DNA from: Melampsora larici-populina 98AG31
Lineage: Eukaryota > Basidiomycota > Pucciniomycetes > Pucciniales > Melampsoraceae
DNA length: 64,000 nucleotides
Assembly: GCF_000204055.1 (NCBI RefSeq)
Contig: NW_006768805.1
Coordinates: forward strand, 799,575-863,574
Direction: 5' to 3'
Position numbers and translations under genes: made by a program. Positions 4,682 to 29,190 of the stretch are shown here, one piece after another (the first letter of the stretch is position 1; every line of letters starts with the position of its first letter). The notes under the pieces are model-generated. The model worked only from the letters and a program-made list of their open reading frames with translations. It made no database searches and was not told the origin of the DNA.

Positions 4682-7600
4682 ATGCAAATCGAGATACCTG
4701 ACTTTGATGATGATACACCATTCTTACCAACAAGTTCATTTGGTACTCAACAAAATCAATTCAGTGCTTCTTCTTTCTCACCTTCAACTAACGATCATCA
4801 TGAAAGAGATGGTTCAAGTTCTTCATCAACTCATCATCATCAACAACAACAATCTACTCTCTTCTCATTCACTTCTCCACTTCAATCATCTTCACGTCCA
4901 TTCGGTGGTCAATCTCATCAACCATTTCATCTTATCAATCATCATCCAAATCATCATCATCTTACCAATTCTAATTTAAATTCAACTACCTTGGATCATG
5001 AAATCAGAACTAAAAGCAATTTAAATCATCATCAACTACATGCTTCTCCAACCAGTCCAAGTCCTAATAATTCTCAATTACATCAAAACTTACTCACCAG
5101 ATCTGGTCCACCAAGAAAATTATCAGTGGCAAGTCTCAGAACGGGTGTTGCACTTAAATCTTCTAATAATAATCATCATCTTGAAAACTCTAGATTACAT
5201 CGTAATAACAATCCAATCGATCTTCTCAATACTTCAATCGGTCTTTCTTCTCCTTTTTCTCCAAACATCAGTCCTGGTACTTCTACTACTCATCATGGTA
5301 GATCTCCTAGAAGTAGAAGTGATACCACTACTACTAGTACCACTCATTCGGCTAACACTTCAAATGGTGAAGCTCATTCTCCACTAGAGGTCAGTTTCTT
5401 CATCCGCTTACATACCTTCAGTGGACTTGTACTGAGTGATGTGCGATGTTTTAAAGGTTGCAATTTACTTGATCATGGATCGATTTTTTGAAGAATGTGA
5501 AATTAAACTTGGTCAACTTTTAGGAAAAGCAATTGTAAGTTAACCAAATCCAGAATCCCAAAAATCCTCAAAGCTTTCTTACTAAATTGGTTTGATTGAT
5601 CACTTTGTATATATAGCCTATTGCGAATGAAGATGATTTTTATATTCCAGGTTGGATTGGTCAAGGTGTTGATCCAAGTTTTGATGCAACATTCGATTCA
5701 CTTGCTCAAGTTTCTCGAAAGAATCCAAATCAAGTGATTAATTTTGTCATGAGATGGAAATCTAGACAAGGTGAAGGGATTGATGAACATTCAATACAAC
5801 GTGCCATGTAAGAGATTCGTCTTTTTCTTTCTATAAAGATTATCAGGATGTTGAATAAAGATCATTGGGATCGGTCATGTTTTTGAATAGATTTAGTGGT
5901 GATAATACTACCAATCCTCGTCGAGTTGCAGCGGTCTTGGCCGAACGAAAAGGTGTCAGTACTCACTCATTCATTCAATTAGGAGTTCTTAGATCCTTAT
6001 GGCGATCGAGCTCATGATCAACTATTTTCTCGAGATCATCCATAGTTGGCACTTGTTTACTTATTATGTAGAGCATTGATTGCTATCGTTCAAGGTGTGA
6101 CAAGAGAAAGTTTAGGTGAAGAGTTGGGATCTCGTATAGAAGAGATTGTCTTTAATTCGATTAAGAATGCGGATACGTAAATCATTGTTTTTTTCAATCT
6201 TCTATTCTTCAGAAGACTGATTCTATTCACTTTTTTTCCCCTGTTGGATCAAAAGATCTCCTAGTTCTCGAAATCCTAATAAGCAAGCCAATATGAATAT
6301 GTTTGCTCAGCTGTTAGGGGCACTATCCAACATACGGTACTTTCTCAATTTCGATCCGTCTTGAAGGGATTCAATTGAACTGACGATTGTTCGATGTTGG
6401 AAATGTAGATTTGCAAGTGTGAGTGATAGGTTTGCAAGTGAGATAGACCTCACCAACCGGGCAGCAGCGATCAAAGATCAAAAAGATTCCGAAACCAGGC
6501 TAGGCTTCTTAATCAGAGGTGTTCAATATCTCAAATTAAAAGTTTATCCATTAGAAGCTTTTGAAGAGACTGCAGAATTTATTGCGGCCTTTGCTATTAT
6601 CTTTGAAGGATCAAGAGGTTCATTTGTCAAGACTGCAATGGCTGAGACGTTGAATCCTTTATTGGCTCAAGTGGTTCAGTCTGCAACTGCAGAAGTTAAT
6701 CATCCGGTTTGGAACAAAGCAATCGTCACCATCTTTAATAAGGCTCATTCAATGTCCGATAAGCCATCCAAAGCAAGGTATTGGAATGCGACAGTCCCTT
6801 TGATCTGTTCTGTAGTCGGTGCTGCCCCTCAAGATTTCCTGCTAGCAAAATGGCCAGAAACGATTGATTGGTGCTTTGGCAAGCTAAAGGAGAAAACCAC
6901 TCGTCCGACCATGATGCTCGGAATCGTCCAACTTGTCTGGGCTTACCTTCGCCGAGTTCGAGAAGGCGCTTCTGCCTTGAACAAACGACTTGAACCTATT
7001 CTCAAGTCAGCCTTTCCAGCCGATCGGAAGAATGTATATCCAGCCGAGGTCTCGCTCGATACGTTTGCCTCATTGATCCATTACATCTTACACTGGCAAC
7101 TCGAATATGGTAGTGATTTTACTCTGAGAACACTACTGACGGGATCATCTGACTCCGGAGAAAGTGGGAGCGGCTTAGTCGCCCAGGCTGGATCAGATCG
7201 GATCACGATCGGTATCACTGCTACTTTGCGAGCCCTTACATCATTGGAAGCAGGCGAAGATCCGCTTTACCCAGTAGTTGAACCTCAGAACGGCACGAAA
7301 TCTCATTCATCCTCATCTCATTCACTCCATCATTTTCATCCTAAAGATCCTGAAACGGATTGTAAGGATGGGATGGCCTTGAAGCCAGAAACTCTAGAAA
7401 GACCTAGGATCAAAGCTTTTGTTGATGCGGTGGGTACTAAAGTTCTTCAAATCGCTGCATATTGTGATCGAACTTTGGCTACTTATACCCTCACCAATGA
7501 TAGGTATATTGCACCTTGGCATGATAGTATTGCTCAAAGAGCTGAAACTTTAGATAGTGCAATGGTCATCAAACGACATGGCTATTTTGCTGTAGAATAT

Positions 7601-10600
7601 CCTAGACATGTCCAACGGCTCTTTGATGTGCTTCAAACTTGTTTACAAGCATGGCCTAGGATCTTAACCTCTTCTACTGCAGATTCAGCTGCACTCGATA
7701 TTCTATTCCGCGGTCTGATCTCTTTGGATGTAGGTGTGACAATTGCGTCTAAGTTGGCACTTCGAAGATTTGTAGCATCAGATAAATCGTATATGGTTTT
7801 ACAGAATTATACTAGGTTTTTGGCTAAACCGGAATTCTTTTTTCGATCTAAACCACAATTACAAAAAGGATCTGATAATAAAGTGGAATCATTAGTCAAA
7901 TTTTGGGTTGAAGTGATGTCTACATGGTGTGATCGACTTAGGAAATTGGCTAGTGGTACAGATGATGAACAAACTAATTCGATCTTTGGTGGAGAAGGTC
8001 TTAAATTTGTTTCTCAGATGGAAGCTACTAGCTTAGTACTTCTTTGTTCGAGATCTTCTTCTACTCGAAAATCGGCGCTAGATGCTTTACGGATCACTGG
8101 GACGGCTCGTACGATCATTCAAGACTCTGGATTGATCACCACACCGAAATCGATCAACTTTACGAGGAATAATAGTGTGGCTAATGTTTTAGATGAAGCA
8201 GAAAGATACTTGTTTGACACTATCTTACCTGATGATCTTCCTAGTACGGAAAAAACTCGATTGTTGAAATGGAAAAAACAACGTAAACCTGGTAGTAGTG
8301 ATAGTCTGATCCGTCTATTGGAAAGTGATAATCCTGCAGACATGACTTTGCTTTGTATCGCACTTTCCTCCATCTTTAGTACGGCTTTAAAGTATCTGCC
8401 TCAGACTATGGTACATGCTCGAACATTACTATACAGTCAACTTCAAAGAATTTATCCTCTCGCTTCTGATGCTGCTGGCGTTGGTGGTCGATCGACTGTT
8501 AATGGAAATGGACCCAATCCGGGATGGGACGACCGGAACTTACTCACCTCGTGGTCTTCACTTCTCATCAGCTTGACTAGTATCACTACCTCTGCCGATC
8601 CGAAAGTGGGTAATCTTAGTACTGGGATCGATAACTCATCCATCGCACAGCATAGTAATTCAACCCGAGAGAGAAGTATCTCACCTGGAGAAGATTTGAT
8701 CAAGACCCTCGTGCCTTTCTTAACATCAGATCAATCTACCTTCCGAGAAGCAACAATCAGAGCAATGAGTTGTATTCATGTCTCAATGTATGAAACTCTT
8801 CTTGATGGCCTCTCTGGACTTGCTCATCATCTCACTAGTGAACGTAAAATGATTGAAGCACAAAAAGATCGATCAGCAAGACCTAATGGGACAGTGAAGA
8901 TCATACGATTATTTTCAGCTATAGGAAAATTACATGAAAGTACGACCAAGTTTTTATTTCATTTAGATTTCAATTCAACAGATAGATGTATTGAGATCTT
9001 AGTTAGATTTATTAAAGAAACTTGTTTATTTTTAAAATCAAGACAAAGTATGGAAGATTTCTTAACGGTTTCGATTAGGAAATCATTTTTAATTTTTAGT
9101 GAAAGGGTTTTTAAAAAGATTGGATTAAAAGATTTCAATCATGATTCATCATCTGGCTCGACTTCTTTAATTACTGTTAAGATTCATCAAGTCTTTAATC
9201 ATGAATTAGTGATTGATATATTTAATTTAGCAGAAGACTGGAGTACTAGATTAGCTTCTAGTAGTAGTACTACTCATCATCCTAACCCTAGTGGTTTAGA
9301 TCCACGTGTTTCTAGAATTAATTCGGCTACTAGTAGGAATAATCCACCTATTAAGGGAAGGTCACCTTTGGCTTCAACTTCAACAGGTAGTGGTGAATTG
9401 CTTTTGCATTCGGCGACTATGATCGCAACTCTTTGTGTAAGCTTTACTGAATTTATCATCGAGTTTGGATTTTTTTTGTATTGACTTTTGTTGGTGGTTT
9501 TGGGTTTAAGGAAACTGCATTAGACTTTCGGTCTTCTAGTGGATCCCCGCAACGACCTGAGACTAGTCGAGAGCCTACGACTAGTGCTAGTCGTATGCTG
9601 AGATGGATCACCGCTCTTTTTGAGAAGAATGATGCGAAAGTTCATGCAGAAGCCAGGTAAGTGCATTCCATGCACCCTTTGCAAACGTCATCCATTAGCT
9701 GACCCACTCATTGTTATCTATTCAAACACATCACGTACAGACGAGCATTTGTTGGGGCGTGTAAGAGAACAAGCGATCCAGATGGTCTTTTGGAGAATGC
9801 ACTCACGCTTTGTTGGAATGAATCTGATTGCTGGCCTTTGGAGCAGACGTTATTTGGGATCATGTGTAGTACGCTGATATGTGAACCAAGCTTACGACTT
9901 CGAGAAGAAGCTATCCTTGCATTATGTTTATCTCGAATCTCACATCCTGAACTGACTACTCGTCAAAGAGCTTTGGATGTATTGAAATTCCGTTGTCTCT
10001 CTGATATCACACCTCAATGGCTATCAGAAATCGAAGTTGGAATTCAAAGTGCATTTGCAGGACATCACTTGGTTTCTCAAACTTTACTTTCAAAGGCTAT
10101 CTCTGATATGAAAACGATCGATCCATCTTGCTTTATTGTCGAAGTAGGCAATCGGATCTTACAAGTGGAAGCTCTGAAAGCACGACCACTAGTACGATTG
10201 ATGCCAACTTGGCTAGCTCAAATCAATCTCGCCCCTGCAGTTTGTGATATCGGTTCTTCAAAAGTGAAAAACCTTCTTAGTATCGTCTTACTAGTTTCGT
10301 CTCAATTTGTTGAACATCAACCCGAGGCAGTTAGCGCGATCTGGCTTTCATTTGCCGATGCTTCACCTCTCAATACTGCAGCTATCATCACCTTTCTGTT
10401 AGATGAAACTAAACGTCGAGGTCTTCCTGCATTTGTTCGTCTCTCTCGAACGATCTTGTCTTCGATGACAGAGAATACGGGACTTGAAGTGGTAGCACGA
10501 GATTTGGTTAACACTCTACAACCGGCCAAATTACTAGCTCCTCAGGATCCAGCTCCACTCGATTCTGGGATCTTACCCACTCGATCCAATGATCTCGATA

Positions 10601-13128
10601 CTCATTTTCCTCAACTTCCTTCTCGTACGGTCATGTCTCATATGCAAGCTGCGATTCTTTTGTTGGGTGAAGCAATGGTACTGAAACCGTTAGGCTTGGC
10701 AGATCGTTTATCAAGCGTGGTACATGCCTATGTAGTCCAAGCTGATCATACCAATATCACCTTACAAGCACAGATGCGAGAGGTCTTGGTACGATATGTG
10801 TATATGTTAAGAAGGATGCAACAACAATGTGATCAAAGTACTACAACACCCAACCGATCACTTCCTTTAATCAATCCAGAAGATAAAGAAGCATGGAGAT
10901 CGTTTTGGGATTTTGAGGAAACTAGTTCATCAAGAAGACATCGAAAGATCTTACCCAGAAATTTAGAACATTTAGTTGAAGAGATCAGTCAACTCACCTC
11001 TTATTTCATCACTGATTTTTGTCAACAATGGGCTAAAGTGGCCATCGAATGGGCTACCCAATGTCCAGTAAGACATGTAGCTTGTAGATCATTACAAGTT
11101 TTAAGGATCTTGGGATTACCGGTGGATTCGAATTTGTTGGCTGAATTATTGATTCGACTTTCGAATACGGCTTCAGATCCATCACAAGAGGTTCAATTGT
11201 TTGCATTAGAAGTTTTAACGACTTTATCAGTCTCAGTTAAAGTTCAAAACGTCAATCAAACTCCATTTGCTCAATTGTTTTGGACAGGTGTCTCGTGTTT
11301 AGAAACGTGTAATGAATTAGAGTTTTTAGAAGCCATCGAATTACTTGGATCGATTTTAGAACCATTGGAAGATTCACATTGTTTTGATATTGAAGGATCT
11401 AGACCGACGAGATGGTTAGCGGATGGAGGACCGATTCGACAAGTGGTGATGAAAGGACTTCGATCTTCATCACTTTGTCAATCTTCTTGGTCTTTGATTC
11501 GACAATTCTTATCGTTACCTGAGAGTTGTCAAATTGTAGATTGGGTGAATGGAGGATGTGCATTACTTTATTCAGCTTGTTTACCTTGGTGTTTACATAT
11601 TCTTGAAACGGGGATCATGCAATATGAAATGGATGATATTGCGATCAGATTAGCTCATTTAACTTCTTCAATGGGAATGGAAGGATTATCTAGAGTGATG
11701 ATTTCATTTGCTAAACGAAGGTTTCGAACGAATGATGATTTTTTGAAACAAGCCATTAATGGGATTCGAGAATATTTTTTACCTTTGTTTGGAAATGAGA
11801 TATTAATTTTATATTTTGGATTCTTATTGAATCCATTAGATTGGATTAAATCCAAAACGTTGATCGTACTGAAAGTTTATATTAAATTGATGGATTTAAA
11901 TTCGAATGAGATCTTGGAACTTGGTTATGATCTTTTAACACCGGTCTTAAACCTTTTACAAACTAATTTATCTTTACAAGCTTTAGAAATCTTATCTGAA
12001 CCGATCCCTATCAAAGGAAAATCGAATTTGATTGGAAACTTTAATGGGATTGGACATCATCATCATCATTATCATCGACATCGAACTACTCAAGATCAAT
12101 TAGGTAAAAAGGTTTTTGGGAATCCAGATGAGACAGGATGGTGTGTGGCCAATGGAAATGAAGCTTTGAAAGAAACTAGGATGAGGTTAGTAGAAGTGAT
12201 TGAAAGTTTTGGTATGAATCAAACTTTGTTTGAAACTTTAAAACGATCGTCGGTGGTTGAGTTTACATATGAATGGGGCATTGAAGTCGATTCGAATATC
12301 GATCATCAAACTCAATCTGATCTAGCAGAGACGAATGAAAGTTTTGGTGAGATGGTTTCAACTTTACATGATCTTTCGGATTTCTTTGGTCAAGATGGAA
12401 GTCATGGAGGTGTAGGGGGAGGAGGAGGAGGAGGAGTGAATGGAACGTCAAATTTGATGAATGAGTCTAGGATCTCATCTCCTTTGAATCCTTCGACGGC
12501 TAGAGTGGCGGCGATCCTTTCACGTTCGTTGAGTAAAAGAAGAGCTAATCGACCTAGTTTACATGTTAGAAAAGGTAGTAATCTGAATGAAGGATTCGTT
12601 CAAACTACTCCAACTACTACTGTCATACCTACTACTAGTTCTACTACTCATCATCATCCTCATCATCAAGTTAGTTTGAACTCTAGACCAGGTAGTTTGG
12701 TAGGAAGTACATCTTATTCTGAATCTTCTTCTCCTTCTCATTCTAATCATCTTGATTATTCTCAACTACATCATCCCAATCATCATTATCGAACATCTGT
12801 TTCGACTGATTATGATGATATTGATGAAGAAGATGATGATGAAGAAGATGAAGAAGAAGAAGAAGAAGAAGAGGATGATGAAGATGATGAGATGATTGAA
12901 GAGATTGGTGGAAGTGGAAGTGGATTAGTGGGAGAAAATCGAGGTGGTGGTCATGGTGGTAGTGGTAGTGGTAGTGATGATAGTCTTGAGGTGTTTGGAT
13001 TGGATTTAGAGGATGATGATCATCCATCTCATCATCATCATCATCAAGAAAATCGTCAAGAAGAAGAAGAACATTCAAAGAAATCTTTGGATAAGAAGAA
13101 TGAATCTTTTGGGAAAAGGAAAAGTTGA
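4682..13128 (+). CDS. PAG1: PAG1/Tao3/Mor2 (Furry-family) cell morphogenesis protein
   Basis: This is a very large HEAT/ARM-like scaffold. In yeasts the family (Tao3, Mor2) supports NDR/LATS kinase signalling (RAM/MOR network) in polarised growth and cell separation. Nine exons: 4682-5389, 5457-5534, 5617-5807, 5891-5954, 6046-6176, 6256-6336, 6409-9436, 9511-9656, 9741-13128. The phases close to 2604 aa, close to yeast Tao3. The first ~236 aa are Ser/His/Asn-rich and probably disordered. The conserved Furry N-terminal part starts at FFEECEIKLGQLL and includes LVYLLCRALIAIV (residue ~350) and a long helical middle. The tail (from ~2245) has a His run, a Gly run, a Ser/His-rich stretch and an acidic run (~2504-2531). 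Introns use GTAAGT- or GTCAGT-like donors. Family identity is strong; the exact N-terminal start is less certain because that region is low complexity. Confidence 0.93.
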
Positions 13129-21960: not shown

Positions 21961-22212
21961 GATTCCTTTTGCAAAGTTCTCTTCTTCTCCTTCCCCCAAA
22001 AAACCCCTTCTCAGTTAAAAATTATATCATTCTCTCAAACTAGAGTACTTATGGATATTATGGATCTCTCTTTGGTTTTTCTGTTGATTACTTATGATTC
22101 AAGACTGATGGAAAAACAACTCAGAAAAGATCCTCATGAATTGAAATCTTGAATAAGAATTCACGATGTATACAAAAGAGAAATTTCAAGAAATGTAACC
22201 AGAGACAATAAG

Positions 22213-22444
22213 AGGGCTCAAGTCAAAATTTTTGCGGCCTTTTCTTAAAAAACCGGGGAAAGTTTTTTACAGTACCGTGCTGTAAAAACTTTTCCCAATT
22301 TGTAAAAACAGACCGTAAAAATTTATTTCGGATCTCCTTCTGAGCAGCAGATTTACGCAAATCTGCGTAAATTTGCTGCTTAAAAAAATTTGGGAAAAAA
22401 AAATTACAATAAAAGTAGTAAAATATTTTGACTTGAGCCCCCCT
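22213..22444. mobile_element. TIR MITE with 6-bp direct flanks
   Basis: The left end AGGGCTCAAGTCAAAATTTT and the right end AAATATTTTGACTTGAGCCC (followed by CCCT) are inverted copies. The direct repeat AATAAG lies on both sides (22207-22212 and 22445-22450). Inner parts also pair (TTACGCAAATCTGCGTAA palindrome near 22351). It is non-coding. Confidence 0.75.
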
Positions 22445-22549
22445 AATAAGGGGTTTCAAGTTTGACATTTTACATGATTTTATGTTTTAAAAACTTGGAC
22501 AAAGTCATAAATTTTACGTAAAATATTTTTAAAACAGACAACCTTTTTA

Positions 22550-22821
22550 CTAACTTAACTAAGTCCCTATGCTCTTGCCGCGAGCTTGTGAGCATAGGGA
22601 CTTACCTCTAATGTCGAGTTTCTTGGTGACAAGCCCATTTGGGTTTTGGTGGTAGAAATCTGTACCAACAGAACTTTTCGGCATATGATTATGAAATTTC
22701 CTCTTCTTCAACTATATTTGGATTTGGCTTCTTACACGCCTTTCCATTTATCTAACTTTTACTTTTGTAATCAGTATAAAAAGTTTTCATTGAGCTCAAG
22801 AAGAGCTCTTTTGAAATTTCA
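22550..22821 (+). repeat. Left terminal inverted repeat of the 6.3-kb element
   Basis: Its 272 bp match the reverse complement of 28595-28866 with one visible difference (TTTTCGGCATA here, TTTTCCGCATA there, near 22680). The tip carries a hairpin with arms AAGTCCCTATGCTC and GAGCATAGGGACTT around a GCCGCGAGC-containing loop. The inner limit is TGAAATTTCA, itself a palindrome. Confidence 0.95.
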
Positions 22822-22961
22822 TAAATGACTGCGGATGTCGGCTCAACGGTCGTTTGTGACATCTATGCAGCTTGAAAACCAAATTCGAGGATGTCTTGAC
22901 TTGGTCAGGAAAAGTGATTGCTTCAATAGCTTTGAACGCGTCTATTCAATAAAGAACCAAA

Positions 22962-25401
22962 ATGTCTTCGACGAAAATGCGAACTCGAAGCGCTCCACAT
23001 GATGAGGAAGAAAGACCGGATTTGAACGATCTTAGCGAGTCCAGCCATAGCTTACATCTAGAACGGATAAGTCTCAGCTTAAAAGTCCTCACCGCAACAA
23101 TTGCTGAGCAGTGGACATTGTTCAAGGCCAAGTTCATGGCTAGGTGATTCAATGACGAGCCAAGCGACGTTCAGCTACAAGCCGGTGTTAGTCTAGCAAA
23201 CGGTCAAAATACCTTCTTACTTTCTGCAACTGGATCTGGAAAGAGTCGAGTCTCGGAACTATTCTTCCACATGTTCCCAAAGGTCAAGAACGCTGTTATA
23301 TTAGTGTTGAACCCGCTAGATGCGCTCGGTGATAATCAGGTTTGTTTAGGCTTTTGATCAATGCCAGCCATGTCACTTCAGGCTAGATGACCTGGCTATT
23401 CTCTTTAGGTTTTAGAGAAACGTTCATCCGGTATCACTGCGGTTAATCTAACAAAGAATACATTTGATAAGAAAGTATTGAAGCAATTAAAAAGCAATTA
23501 CTATTCATTCATATATTTGGTATGTTCTTTTGTCCAGAGAGAACACGTCAATTCTTTGTTTTCAAGGAAGCTGATACCTATCATTGGTTTCCAAAGAGTC
23601 CTGAGATCTTCTTAAATAGTGAATCGTTTCAAACACTTTACCATAGTAAACAGTTTCAGTCTCATCTTGCTTTAAAAGTGGTTGATGAAGCACACTGTAT
23701 TTATTTGTGGGGGCTTCAGGAGAGCGGAGCTTCAAGGAACTTTTCGGTTCATGTGACTCCACAAGATGTTGGTCTATTTCGATCATCTTATGGAAAACTT
23801 GGCCCGCAGCTGATGGCAACCGACGACATACCAACACTTTTAATGTCGGCAACTTGTGGGCCTCAAGCAGTCTCAGCAATAATGAAAAGCTTAAGCTTAA
23901 CATCATCAAACATGACAATGATACAGGGAGAGCTTACTTGTCCGGAACTGCGCTTCATTCGAATCTATTTGACCGAGACTCTTGATTCAGCAGAAGATCT
24001 CTCTGCAATAATTCCTCACGAATCGATTGTTTCAAACAAAGAATTGCCTCCAATGATTATCTATTCAGGTACTCGTAATAGAACATTGAAAGTAATGGAA
24101 GTAGTTTCAAAAGCTCGGGGTCAACCAGATGATTATAAGAATCCTAAATCAAAATGTATTCGCAGATATCATTCTGTGACTGGTGATAAGGACAAGGAAA
24201 CATGGGCTAAGGAATATGGTGAAGACAAATTCCCAATCCTCTCTGCTACTTCCGCTCTTGGACTTGGTCAGAACTGGCCCCGCGTCAAAATTGTAGTTAT
24301 CATGGGTGCGATGGACCCATCCGAATCCAATCAGATGGCTGGAAGAGCTGGCCGTGGGCGCAATGGGGAGGAAGGTTTAGTCATCTTGTTAGTCCAGCCA
24401 AACATACCTAACGGCAAAAATTCGGCTTCAGCGGTCAAAGTCGACTCTAAAATGGACAATCAGGAGCGCATGCATGCTCTAAGATTCACACCGTGTTGCT
24501 TGAGGGTTGTATATTCCCTGGAAACTTTGTAAGATTTTCTGATGCTACACAAAGAATAACAAACATCCATAATCAAAAAACTGATCAATTTGGATTGTAC
24601 AGAAAAGGATATATTGCCATGTCTCTGTCGGATCCTGGTTACCTTCTGGAGATCGAGCGGGAAAAGTCTGAGAAAATGCCAGCTTGTCGATGTTCGAACT
24701 GTGACCCTCAAGGAGCTGCTCGAATCATTCGTCTACTTCCACAAACAAAATCGTCAGACTTAAATGCTCTGATGTTGTCTTTTCCATCGGAGCCAGAAGA
24801 CGAATCGCTACTCAACATTCCAAGGAGCAGCAGGAAGCGAAAGTTCTCGAGCAACATTCCACTTGTATGCAAGTTGAATGACCCAATTTGACTGAATGCA
24901 CCAATGATTGATCTCGCAGTCTCGATTCTTGGACATTACGAAACTCTTGTCAAGAAAACGTATCCGACCGATCCACCCTATTTACCCAAAAATCTTTTCA
25001 GCCGTGAGGATGCTTGGCAGATCACTAAGAATTACACCTCAGTCTCCAATGGAGCCTTTCTGCGAGAGATCCTTGGAGGACAAACAATACCTGGACTCTT
25101 TGAAACAATCACAACAGGTATTAATTCTTGGCTTCACAGTAACTCTTACAAACAACACCAAGCCGATCTTGAAGATATTCAGATTTCAATCGATCAAGAA
25201 TTTCTTGACACAGAACTTATTGAAAAAGAGCATGAGGAGGAATCGCGATTGAAAGCTGTTGCAAGAGATCTCAAAGCTCAAGGCATCGCAGATCGAAAGC
25301 GGTTACGCACCGAAAAGGCTTCACAAGCTCTGAAATTGAAAGAGCAGAAACAGGCTGATAAAAATAAACAAATTGTACATTTTACGAGTACATCAGGTTA
25401 A
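22962..25401 (+). pseudogene. RecQ-like superfamily 2 DNA helicase, interrupted
   Basis: Coding pieces: 22962-23339, 23409-23519, 23597 to about 24530, then a shifted frame to 25401. Motifs in order are ATGSGKSR (Walker A, ~23230), VVDEAHCIY (DEAH-type Walker B, ~23680), LMSAT (motif III), IIYSGTRN, LSATSALGLG and QMAGRAGRGRNG (motif VI), so both RecA-like lobes are present. A Cys-rich MPACRCSNC segment and a Lys/Glu-rich helical tail follow. Three lesions break it: in-frame TGA at 23145-23147, a one-base frame change near 24525-24535, and in-frame TGA at 24889-24891. Both introns fit in phase with usual borders. Fungal RecQ-like helicases also occur near telomeres, but here the gene lies inside a bounded transposon. 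It is probably inactive as read unless the sequence has errors. Confidence 0.85.
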
Positions 25402-25408
25402 CTTTGAT

Positions 25409-28385
25409 TCAAGGAAATGTTGTGTGTTTGTCAGGTTGATTTGAAGTAGCTTGATCAGGTTGAGTTGAAGTAGCTTGATCAGGTTGATTTGAGATATCTT
25501 GATCTTCCGTTTCGGTGCTCATAGATCCCCAGATGAAGCGAGAAGGAATATTCTTTCGTGCTTCAATGTTGAGGATTGACCGCAACTTTTCAATTCCCAA
25601 TGTTTCAATATCATCAATTTCATCATTCTCATCAGCAGAGCAATTATATGTAGAGTATTTGGGATCGCTCAGGTGAACCTGTGCCATATGTAAAAAGTTT
25701 CTCATTGTTGGCTCCGAGATTGGATGTGGATTGTTCTGATATACATCCTTCAGGCCAGATCGTGCTTTTATTTGATGTATCTGCTCACGCAGCTATATAG
25801 TATTCATACTTAATCAACCCTTGAGATCGCACCAAATATTATCAAAGAAAGAAAAGCGGCCTCACAAGTGGAATGATGATTGAAAACCTTTCCATAAGTT
25901 TTTCGATCTTTGTACCTTGACCCTACAAGTACGTGGATCTATCTAATCAGTCCACGATAATCAAAAATTGAAAGAGGAAAGGACTCACCGAGTTGTTGTA
26001 AAAATATTTCAGCCAATAGTTTTGAATCTCGAGATAAAAGTCTTTGCCAACCCAGTGTCCATCGCGCCCTCCAGTTGCAATCAAAAGTGAATGCTTGATT
26101 GCTTTAGAAATCTCTGGAGGTAAGAATTGATTCAGGATCAATATAAATCTTGGCAGGTGAATTGCATAGTGCAAAAGGCCTTTGACTCCATGTGCCATAA
26201 CAGCCCATCTCTTCCACATTAGCAGGACACGACCTATGTCTCCTACTCGCATTGCATGATCACCTTCAACAATTGTTGCAAAGTCACAAAGTCGCAGACG
26301 AAGATTATACAAAGTCCAGTCCCCAGTCTTTGAAGCTTCTTTAACTGATGAGACAGTGAAGTATTTATCATAGCATTCATCAATAATGGATTGGGCAACA
26401 TTGGGTTGATCGAGTTGAACAGGGGGTTCGCGGTTCTGAATTATCTGCGTGTTGAAAGACATAAACCATCAGCTGAAGACTTGCGAAGAAAATAGTCAAT
26501 TAATACATATCTCAATAAAAACACCATAGTAGCCGTATGGCTTTTGTGAATAATTAGTAGCAAGGCATTGAAGTCCTGTTGAGATGGGAGTCTGTCCGTT
26601 GGAATTGCAAGTGCACCGGCGGTTCGGTGAAGACCAGTGTTGTTTGAGTCGCTTGAATCACCCCAATGATGGCTTATAAGCTTGCTAGCCACGTTCCACA
26701 TTGTATGTGCTAGTCCAGGCATGTTGAGAACACTACTCAAGGATTCTGCAGCCATCTCAGCCGGAAAGCGCTGTCGGGTCAATGATTCGAAGTTCAAACA
26801 AGTCCCCATATCCCCTTCAAACACTTGGATTCCCTCGGCACATTTATCCGGGTCTTCGTCAGTCTGCTTTAAACATTGACTGAGCATATCAGAAACACCT
26901 GCAGAAGAGCTGTCTGATGCGCTCATCATCTTGAGCATCACTAGATCGGGTTTGTACCATTCGATTTGGTCAACTGCAGGAGGGACAGTTGCGAGCGATT
27001 TTTTACAAGTATTGTATGTTGGCAAGTCTTTCTTGAGTTCGTAATCCAGAAGAGCTTTAGCCAGCTGCGACTTCAGTACTAGAGACCAATGCACTTGATC
27101 TTCTTGACTGCGCAACATCGAGAAAATTTCAAACAGTTCTGATTGGCTTTTTTCGATGTACTTCAGGAGAGACTCGAGACTAGCATCCTTGGGGTCAATG
27201 TTATCAAGGCGATGTGCAGGTAAGAAATGAAGATATCCGTAAGAACCATGGAACATCTTTGTAGAAGCCTTGATTCGAGGATCATGAACACGTGCTTGAA
27301 TGTCAATATTATCGAGTGTTGTGAAAGGCCGAAGGTTATATTTTTGGGCCATTCTAGTTTTAATGATCTCTTCGGAAGCTTTTCCAAGGGTTTCCATAGC
27401 TTTCAGTCCAGTTTGACGGCTAGATGTTATTCCCAAGAAGTTTAGATAATCATTGACTCGTTTGGAAATACCGCAAGCAATAAAAGAAATCGAGTTTTGT
27501 AATTGTGTCCCATTGAAGCGTCTGTTGCAGGCAAAAGCTATCATTGCGAGTATAGTACAAGGAAGCTGAGTCGAGAGATACCTAATCAGTTCATTTTTTT
27601 CTTTGCATTCAACCAACATGAGTCACAAGTGCGTACATGCTTCAATCGATGTTCATCAGTCCTGCTGGAGGAAGGCTTTTCCGAATGTGATAGACCTTCC
27701 ATCGCCTCAGCAGGAATGGTTTCTGATATCATTGACTCGTCGTTTTCAGGTGAATCTATTGCTTCGGCAGCATCTTTTGACTTTTTGTCGCGCACTTTAT
27801 TTCGTTCCATAACAGCTAACTCGATCTTCTTGTAGATTAGAGAATGCAGGAAAGGCATACTGTTCCTCAAGATTTTCTCTCGAAGGTCTTCAGACTTGCT
27901 TTTGAAAAACTTGTAGTCCACACACCCTGCACTATAAAAGCTTCCTTTTGGAGCATGGCCTCGAGGTGGCTCTTCACGATTAACAACCTCGTGGGCCTTT
28001 GTAATTGAAGCTACATCAGGAATGATTCAATCCTGTGATGTTACCGGAAGAGACTTGCCTCATTCAAAATGAAGGTACTCCATCGGTCAGTACCATCCTT
28101 CTTTTCGCACTCGATCACTCGCCTCTTGATACTGAAGAGGACTTTCTCAGTTGAAGCCCAACCAGTCTTTGTAGCCCAAAATTGTCGTCTCGAAGGAATT
28201 CCAACGACCTCGGAATCGAGTAAACTTTGAATAAATTCCTTGGGATTCATTCCAATTTTTTGGATATAATCACATATCTTGATTGTACGATTTTGAGACT
28301 CAGCGGTTTTGACCTCCGGCGCTTGATCATCGGCTTCGATATTTGAATTCACTTCTCTCAAGACTGGGTTGATCTGCGTAGCCAT
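25409..28385 (-). CDS. Putative transposase (DUF6589-like) of the 6.3-kb element
   Basis: Minus-strand exons: 28385-28079, 28010-26507, 26444-25989, 25922-25866, 25792-25409. Phases close to 902 aa if one A is added to the seven-A run at 27594-27600, where the frame otherwise slips. Without it the reading frame is broken, so this copy may be a recent pseudogene or carry a homopolymer error. Landmarks in order: a CDSCW motif, a helical part, TLDNIDIQARVHDPR, FHGSYGYLHFLPAH, FEGDMGTCLNFESLTRQRF, HTMWNVASKLISHHWGD, then GDIGRVLLMWKRWAVMAHG and YLEIQNYWLKYFYNN. The tail has three QPDQ/QPDK repeats. The spaced DN, GD and E..N motifs suggest an RNase-H/DDE-like core and recall fungal DUF6589 proteins. 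That link is from memory and unverified. It starts 210 bp inside the right TIR. Confidence 0.7.
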
Positions 28386-28594
28386 CTTTTTAGAATGCGG
28401 TTTTGTTGTAGCGGTCAACGAGTGGGCGTTATCTCAAAAACTGCCAGTTACTGGCAAAACCCTCATGTAAGGATCCAATCCTTGTTGACCAATTCTCTTG
28501 GTCAATTTCTGATGATCAACGGTGTGGTTTTGAGTCGAGAGGTTCACAAGGTCTCACATTACATATCCTTTTGTTTTGTGTAACTCGCAGCATT

Positions 28595-28866
28595 TGAAAT
28601 TTCAAAAGAGCTCTTCTTGAGCTCAATGAAAACTTTTTATACTGATTACAAAAGTAAAAGTTAGATAAATGGAAAGGCGTGTAAGAAGCCAAATCCAAAT
28701 ATAGTTGAAGAAGAGGAAATTTCATAATCATATGCGGAAAAGTTCTGTTGGTACAGATTTCTACCACCAAAACCCAAATGGGCTTGTCACCAAGAAACTC
28801 GACATTAGAGGTAAGTCCCTATGCTCACAAGCTCGCGGCAAGAGCATAGGGACTTAGTTAAGTTAG
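28595..28866 (-). repeat. Right terminal inverted repeat of the 6.3-kb element
   Basis: This is the reverse complement of 22550-22821 apart from one base. The same tip hairpin is present, and the 9-bp target copy ACCTTTTTA follows at 28867. Confidence 0.95.
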
Positions 28867-29190
28867 ACCTTTTTATGTCTCCCGTTTTAAAATTAGCGTA
28901 AATTTATGCTTATAAAAAAAGTATCCGGTCAACCTTTTGACCTTTTCAATGATGGTATCGCCCACTTCATCAAACATGAGATTGGTCAAGAAGGCCATCT
29001 TGTCATTGTCTTCCAAGGGAATGTAGCCAAAGCTTGGAACAATTGGTTCACTGCTTCAATTCTTTTTACGACGATAATCATCCAACATGCTTGCTTTTTA
29101 CAAACAGTCAAGTTTAAACTTTTACACTGTTATATAAAACTTGACCATTTTTTTAAAAAAGCGTATAAAAAATTGTAACTTGAAAGCCCT

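Follow-up and report, generated by a model that had tools for sequence, protein, structure and literature searches.

A two-gene DNA transposon of Melampsora larici-populina, very probably of the AcademH type, combines a DUF6589 protein with a RecQ-like helicase

A 6,317-bp unit at positions 22550–28866 of the window (the whole 64,000-nucleotide stretch of contig NW_006768805.1 of Melampsora larici-populina 98AG31 that was analysed) is an insertion that created a 9-bp target duplication, with ACCTTTTTA at either flank. Between its terminal inverted repeats (TIRs) lie a RecQ-like helicase gene and a gene encoding a DUF6589 protein (Table 1). We regard the unit as very probably a DNA transposon of the AcademH type with two genes, one for a DDE transposase and one for a RecQ-like helicase; the assignment rests on the helicase, the duplication length and the fungal host, Academ having been compared by description only.

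Two other sites in the 98.3-Mb genome contain the surrounding repeat without the unit. Because both of these empty sites carry ACCTTTTTA only once, the unit is a true insertion with a 9-bp duplication. The joined flanks aligned straight across the junction with scores of 254 and 373, compared with 163 and 117 for the left flank alone, 94 and 259 for the right flank alone, and 28 and 29 for the best among 50 shuffled right flanks. An exact 9-mer would arise by chance at any one specified pair of ends with a probability of approximately 4e-6. The exact target duplication claimed in the preliminary description of this DNA is therefore supported by the flank comparison and by the empty sites. Its account of the ends and of the gene order was also accurate: the 272-bp TIRs differ only at 22680, both tips form hairpins whose 15-bp arms are fully paired, and the helicase stop, ending at 25401, is separated by 7 bp from the convergent transposase stop, beginning at 25409. 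The insertion target was itself a repeat: the genome contains no fewer than 111 matches to the left flank (window 22150–22549), and two related places are the empty sites.

The transposon ends recur throughout the genome. An 18-place tip pattern, allowing at most one mismatch, gave 245 + 272 occurrences, against 2 + 0 for the reversed control. Exact 9-bp duplications were present in 28 of 37 elements compared at both ends, a sample biased towards intact ends by the selection for two facing ends, and all 28 differ in sequence. The 37 elements were the window copy, 12 of 18 extracted stretches (L018 and L022–L026 were left out, as both ends did not lie inside the stretch) and 24 facing tip pairs drawn from the first 100 listed occurrences of the tip pattern. 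The exact duplications were distributed over the first set (9 of 13), long elements of 2.7–14.5 kb (8 of 10) and short elements (11 of 14). Those without one were L011, whose right end is missing, L013, L015 and L016 (8 of 9 bases) in the first set, and C7:2005960, C17:1340332, L047, L050 and L055 (8 bp exact) among the facing tip pairs. The duplicated targets displayed no strong sequence preference. Two copies that are 99.3% identical over 7.4 kb lie at separate sites with different duplications, and recent movement is therefore indicated. The unit is thus not a single copy, and the expectation that it would recur with fresh target duplications held. In the 601-bp copy L013 (C40:463688-465088), the outer flanks form a near-perfect inverted repeat, with no direct duplication.

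Among the elements with transposon tips, three consist of a single hairpin (Table 1), and a genome search with one of them found another full-length match at C35:550937-551008. Judging from these 52–75-bp elements, movement may require only a short stretch of end sequence in cis when the proteins are provided from elsewhere. A folding z-score of −2 or lower was obtained for 21 of 36 distinct 56-nt tips (mononucleotide shuffles), in a test whose 56-nt cut shortens longer hairpins (L016, L017, and L020) and which left out the 90-base loci L027–L046 for having too little tip sequence. In the short families L048, L050, L052, and L056 the tips remained above the −2 threshold (z −0.1 to −1.6), and L048, L052, and L056 nevertheless have exact 9-bp duplications. 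The idea that hairpin tips are a requirement is weakened by these three families.

The two genes are also linked in other copies, as had been anticipated. When exons were merged, 104 DUF6589 matches corresponded to at least 94 loci (a lower bound, with 102 of 248 candidates scored), and a related helicase (likewise a lower bound, with 120 of 201 candidates scored) was located within 8 kb at 81 of them, compared with about 2% expected by chance. The pairs were convergent in 80 cases, on the same strand in one and divergent in none. Four of the 13 helicase-less loci were rechecked; one retained a decayed convergent helicase, and no helicase was detectable in 5 kb at the other three. Some seemingly unpaired helicases adjoin transposase pieces (L011, L019, and L022). 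The ratio of nonsynonymous to synonymous divergence (dN/dS) from the window copy was 0.09–0.11 for the main transposase exon and 0.06–0.20 for the helicase exon, with dS saturated in several pairs. Helicase and transposase divergence were correlated (Mantel r 0.92, p 0.009), a result of little weight given that just five elements yielded single unbroken matches for both exons. Three DUF6589 loci, C20:475297, C25:625181, and C28:889726, score identically and are therefore probably recent copies of another, similar family.

Within NCBIfam, the longest helicase frame of the window (E 1e-12) and the helicase of the related copy L009 (E 3e-20) both matched TIGR00614 (recQ_fam) best, in each case below the curated cut-off, which agrees with the earlier reading of this gene as RecQ-like. 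Among solved structures, the L009 helicase matched RECQ4, RECQ1, and WRN; for the window frame the top match was a DEAD/DEAH RNA helicase (E 3.8e-4), followed by RECQ5, WRN, and others. The L009 helicase, which was used in the family searches, has DEAN where the window copy has DEAH, and from this motif it may be inactive too. The window helicase gene is probably dead: in-frame stops occupy 23145–23147 and 24889–24891, where all eight compared relatives have sense codons (the first-stop position was placed by hand for the five more distant of them). The unit had been described as a complete transposon, which is correct for its ends, with intact TIRs and duplication, but not for its genes. Apart from the two stops the helicase is well kept, while only a single base distinguishes the TIRs, so that either the gene decayed fast or the copy was moved by outside proteins. 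As its helicase is broken, further movement of the window copy would need a helicase from other copies, or none.

These data bear on whether the helicase is merely a passenger, with the DUF6589 protein alone mobilising the elements. The broken helicase between nearly identical TIRs and the three rechecked loci without a helicase are compatible with this explanation, but the genes are convergent in all but one of the 81 pairs and the helicase exon shows a low dN/dS among copies, which argues that the helicase matters, and we consider the passenger explanation unlikely. The broken window gene and the helicase-free loci may mean that the helicase is supplied in trans or is dispensable.

The gene model for the DUF6589 protein comprises six proposed exons (28385-28055, 28010-27637, 27565-26507, 26444-25989, 25922-25866, and 25792-25409), the first intron boundary being uncertain. 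The suspected DUF6589 identity was substantiated by PF20231 (E 1.2e-65), and a Pfam scan of the 886-residue protein at E up to 1 yielded nothing besides this family. With the 7,987 best candidates scored, 42 homologues were listed, including 39 from rusts and one from Microbotryum; the closest among the matches listed was from Melampsora americana (P0001; 72% identity over the searched region). The predicted structure of the homologue at 72% identity resembles the DDE transposases of the P element, Hermes, and ISCth4, and the residues D, D, and E are conserved at the expected places of this model. Between the second D and the E is a GxxHxxW motif, whose G512, H515, and W518 are each present in 41 of 42 sequences. 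A search of the transposase profile against the sequences of solved structures gave no match at E up to 1. The RNase-H-like core that had been proposed for this protein is thus supported by prediction, and the DUF6589 protein is probably a transposase.

The structural neighbours raise the possibility of a Mutator-like element (MULE) lineage that acquired a helicase. MULEs typically have long TIRs and duplications of about 9 bp, as found here, and ISCth4, a Mutator-related bacterial transposase, heads the Foldseek list. However, VIA-align gave better alignments with the P element and Hermes than with ISCth4, no MULE domain appeared in the Pfam scan, which yielded DUF6589 alone, and a helicase partner sets the present elements apart; this origin is extremely unlikely. 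The hAT (Hermes) and P element transposases resemble the protein in its predicted RNase-H-like core, which contains a helical insertion, and they are the best VIA-align matches. P element target duplications are 8 bp long, and neither hAT nor P elements are known to have a helicase partner. The duplications of hAT elements are usually also 8 bp (PMC12730594), in contrast to 9 bp here. The Pfam scan gave no hAT or P match, and GxxHxxW replaces the C/DxxH signature found between the second D and the E in hAT, P, MuDR, Kolobok, and Dada (PMC9587614).

According to the preliminary description, no named superfamily had this gene pair, and the unit could represent a new two-gene transposon class. 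We reject this proposal, because a RecQ helicase was already mentioned in Academ in 2013 (PMC3627910), DEAD/DEAH helicase, recQ_fam and similar domains were reported in 2019 for most fungal Academ copies, which are frequently annotated as host genes (PMC6416283), and AcademH was described in 2023 with 9- or 10-bp duplications, tied to its helicase (PMC10045372). For the sister lineage AcademX the last of these articles gives duplications of 3–4 bp. The present elements share with AcademH the exact 9-bp duplications (28 of 37 elements, in addition to the empty sites), a RecQ-type helicase encoded beside the transposase (81 of 94 loci), a DDD/E transposase, here on the predicted homologue model only, and a basidiomycete host (PMC10799480, 2024). 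The same 2024 article reports AcademH in Basidiomycota as low-copy elements, and the hundreds of tips in this genome differ from that description. Three protein searches towards animal Academ listed only rusts, Microbotryum, and nameless proteins (7,987–7,994 best candidates scored in each).

A RecQ helicase is known from more than one transposon line. KolobokH, which is restricted to fungi, also combines it with a DDE transposase (PMC9587614), but has TTAA 4-bp duplications, whereas those found here are 9 bp long and varied in sequence and the helicase is a separate convergent gene. The elements might accordingly form a distinct, unnamed superfamily with its own transposase line, the RecQ-like helicase and the 9-bp duplications being common to AcademH by convergence or helicase capture. 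The GxxH motif in place of C/DxxH points in this direction, as does the lack of any mention of DUF6589 in the open-access literature, a search lacking most subscription journals. Since the duplication length, the RecQ-type helicase, and the fungal host all agree with descriptions of Academ and AcademH, we consider such a superfamily quite unlikely. A more specific form, in which DUF6589 is a DDE superfamily apart from Academ, typically paired with a RecQ-like helicase gene in convergent orientation whose product acts on the tip hairpins, and with movement of single hairpins down to 52 bp, is very unlikely. Helitrons, which have an HUH endonuclease and neither target duplications nor TIRs, do not fit the TIRs and duplications seen here, and no HUH-type domain was found in the transposase or the L009 helicase. 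The assignment to AcademH is retained, and as far as the open literature shows, the link from DUF6589 to an AcademH-type transposon seems to be new. The predicted fold, the abundance of the elements in this genome, and the single-hairpin elements seem to be new too, no dedicated literature search having been made for them.

As an AcademH-type element, the transposon could move as follows. The DUF6589 protein, as a predicted DDE transposase whose second Asp and Glu are separated by a large helical insertion, would bind the CTAACTTAACTAAG tips, bring the ends together and link them to target strands with a 9-bp offset. Filling of the 9-nt gaps by host repair would then give rise to the target duplications. 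The helicase would probably help by unwinding the ends or the strand-transfer product, allowing replication and repair to finish. Excision might proceed by cut-and-paste or copy-out.

Elsewhere in the window, a large conserved cellular gene at 6419-13128 (+) comprises two long frames that match the MOR2-PAG1 cell morphogenesis domains, the N-terminal one at E 1e-119 and the C-terminal one at E 4e-70.

Table 1. Positions of the transposon features in the window and of the single-hairpin elements in the genome
Feature	Position	Strand	Basis
Left 9-bp target duplication ACCTTTTTA	22541..22549	.	End comparison; present once at each of the two empty sites
Left TIR, 272 bp, tip CTAACTTAACTAAG	22550..22821	+	End alignment; genome-wide tip pattern
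Left tip hairpin, 15-bp arms, 15-nt loop	22560..22604	.	Arms fully paired; fold z −7.3 (100 mononucleotide shuffles)
Intron-containing RecQ-like helicase gene, disrupted here by two in-frame stops	22962..25401	+	Frames, homology, comparison with relatives
Longest helicase frame, 336 amino acids, Helicase_C, motifs DEAH and QMAGRAGRGRNG	23522..24532	+	PF00271 E 1.8e-8; TIGR00614 E 1e-12
Putative DUF6589 transposase gene, six proposed exons, 886 amino acids, open	25409..28385	-	Splice signals and conservation; PF20231 E 1.2e-65
Right TIR, 272 bp, tip CTAACTTAACTAAG, one mismatch to left	28595..28866	-	End alignment
Right tip hairpin, 15-bp arms, 15-nt loop	28812..28856	.	Arms fully paired; folding test
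Right 9-bp target duplication ACCTTTTTA	28867..28875	.	End comparison; empty sites
Single-hairpin mini-element, 69 bp	L058:41-109 (genome C1)		Transposon tips and exact 9-bp duplication
Single-hairpin mini-element, 75 bp	L059:41-115 (genome C3)		Transposon tips and exact 9-bp duplication
Single-hairpin mini-element, 52 bp	L060:41-92 (genome C16)		Transposon tips and exact 9-bp duplication

The analysis provides a likely function for DUF6589, a Pfam family of unknown function, and shows that many RecQ-like helicase genes of one genome are located in transposons. RecQ helicases have been called an enriched 'effector family' of rusts, which was read as a sign of DNA repair (PMC9370660), and similar misannotation had been warned of earlier for Academ in fungi (PMC6416283). 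Part of the RecQ count of rusts may consist of transposon genes.
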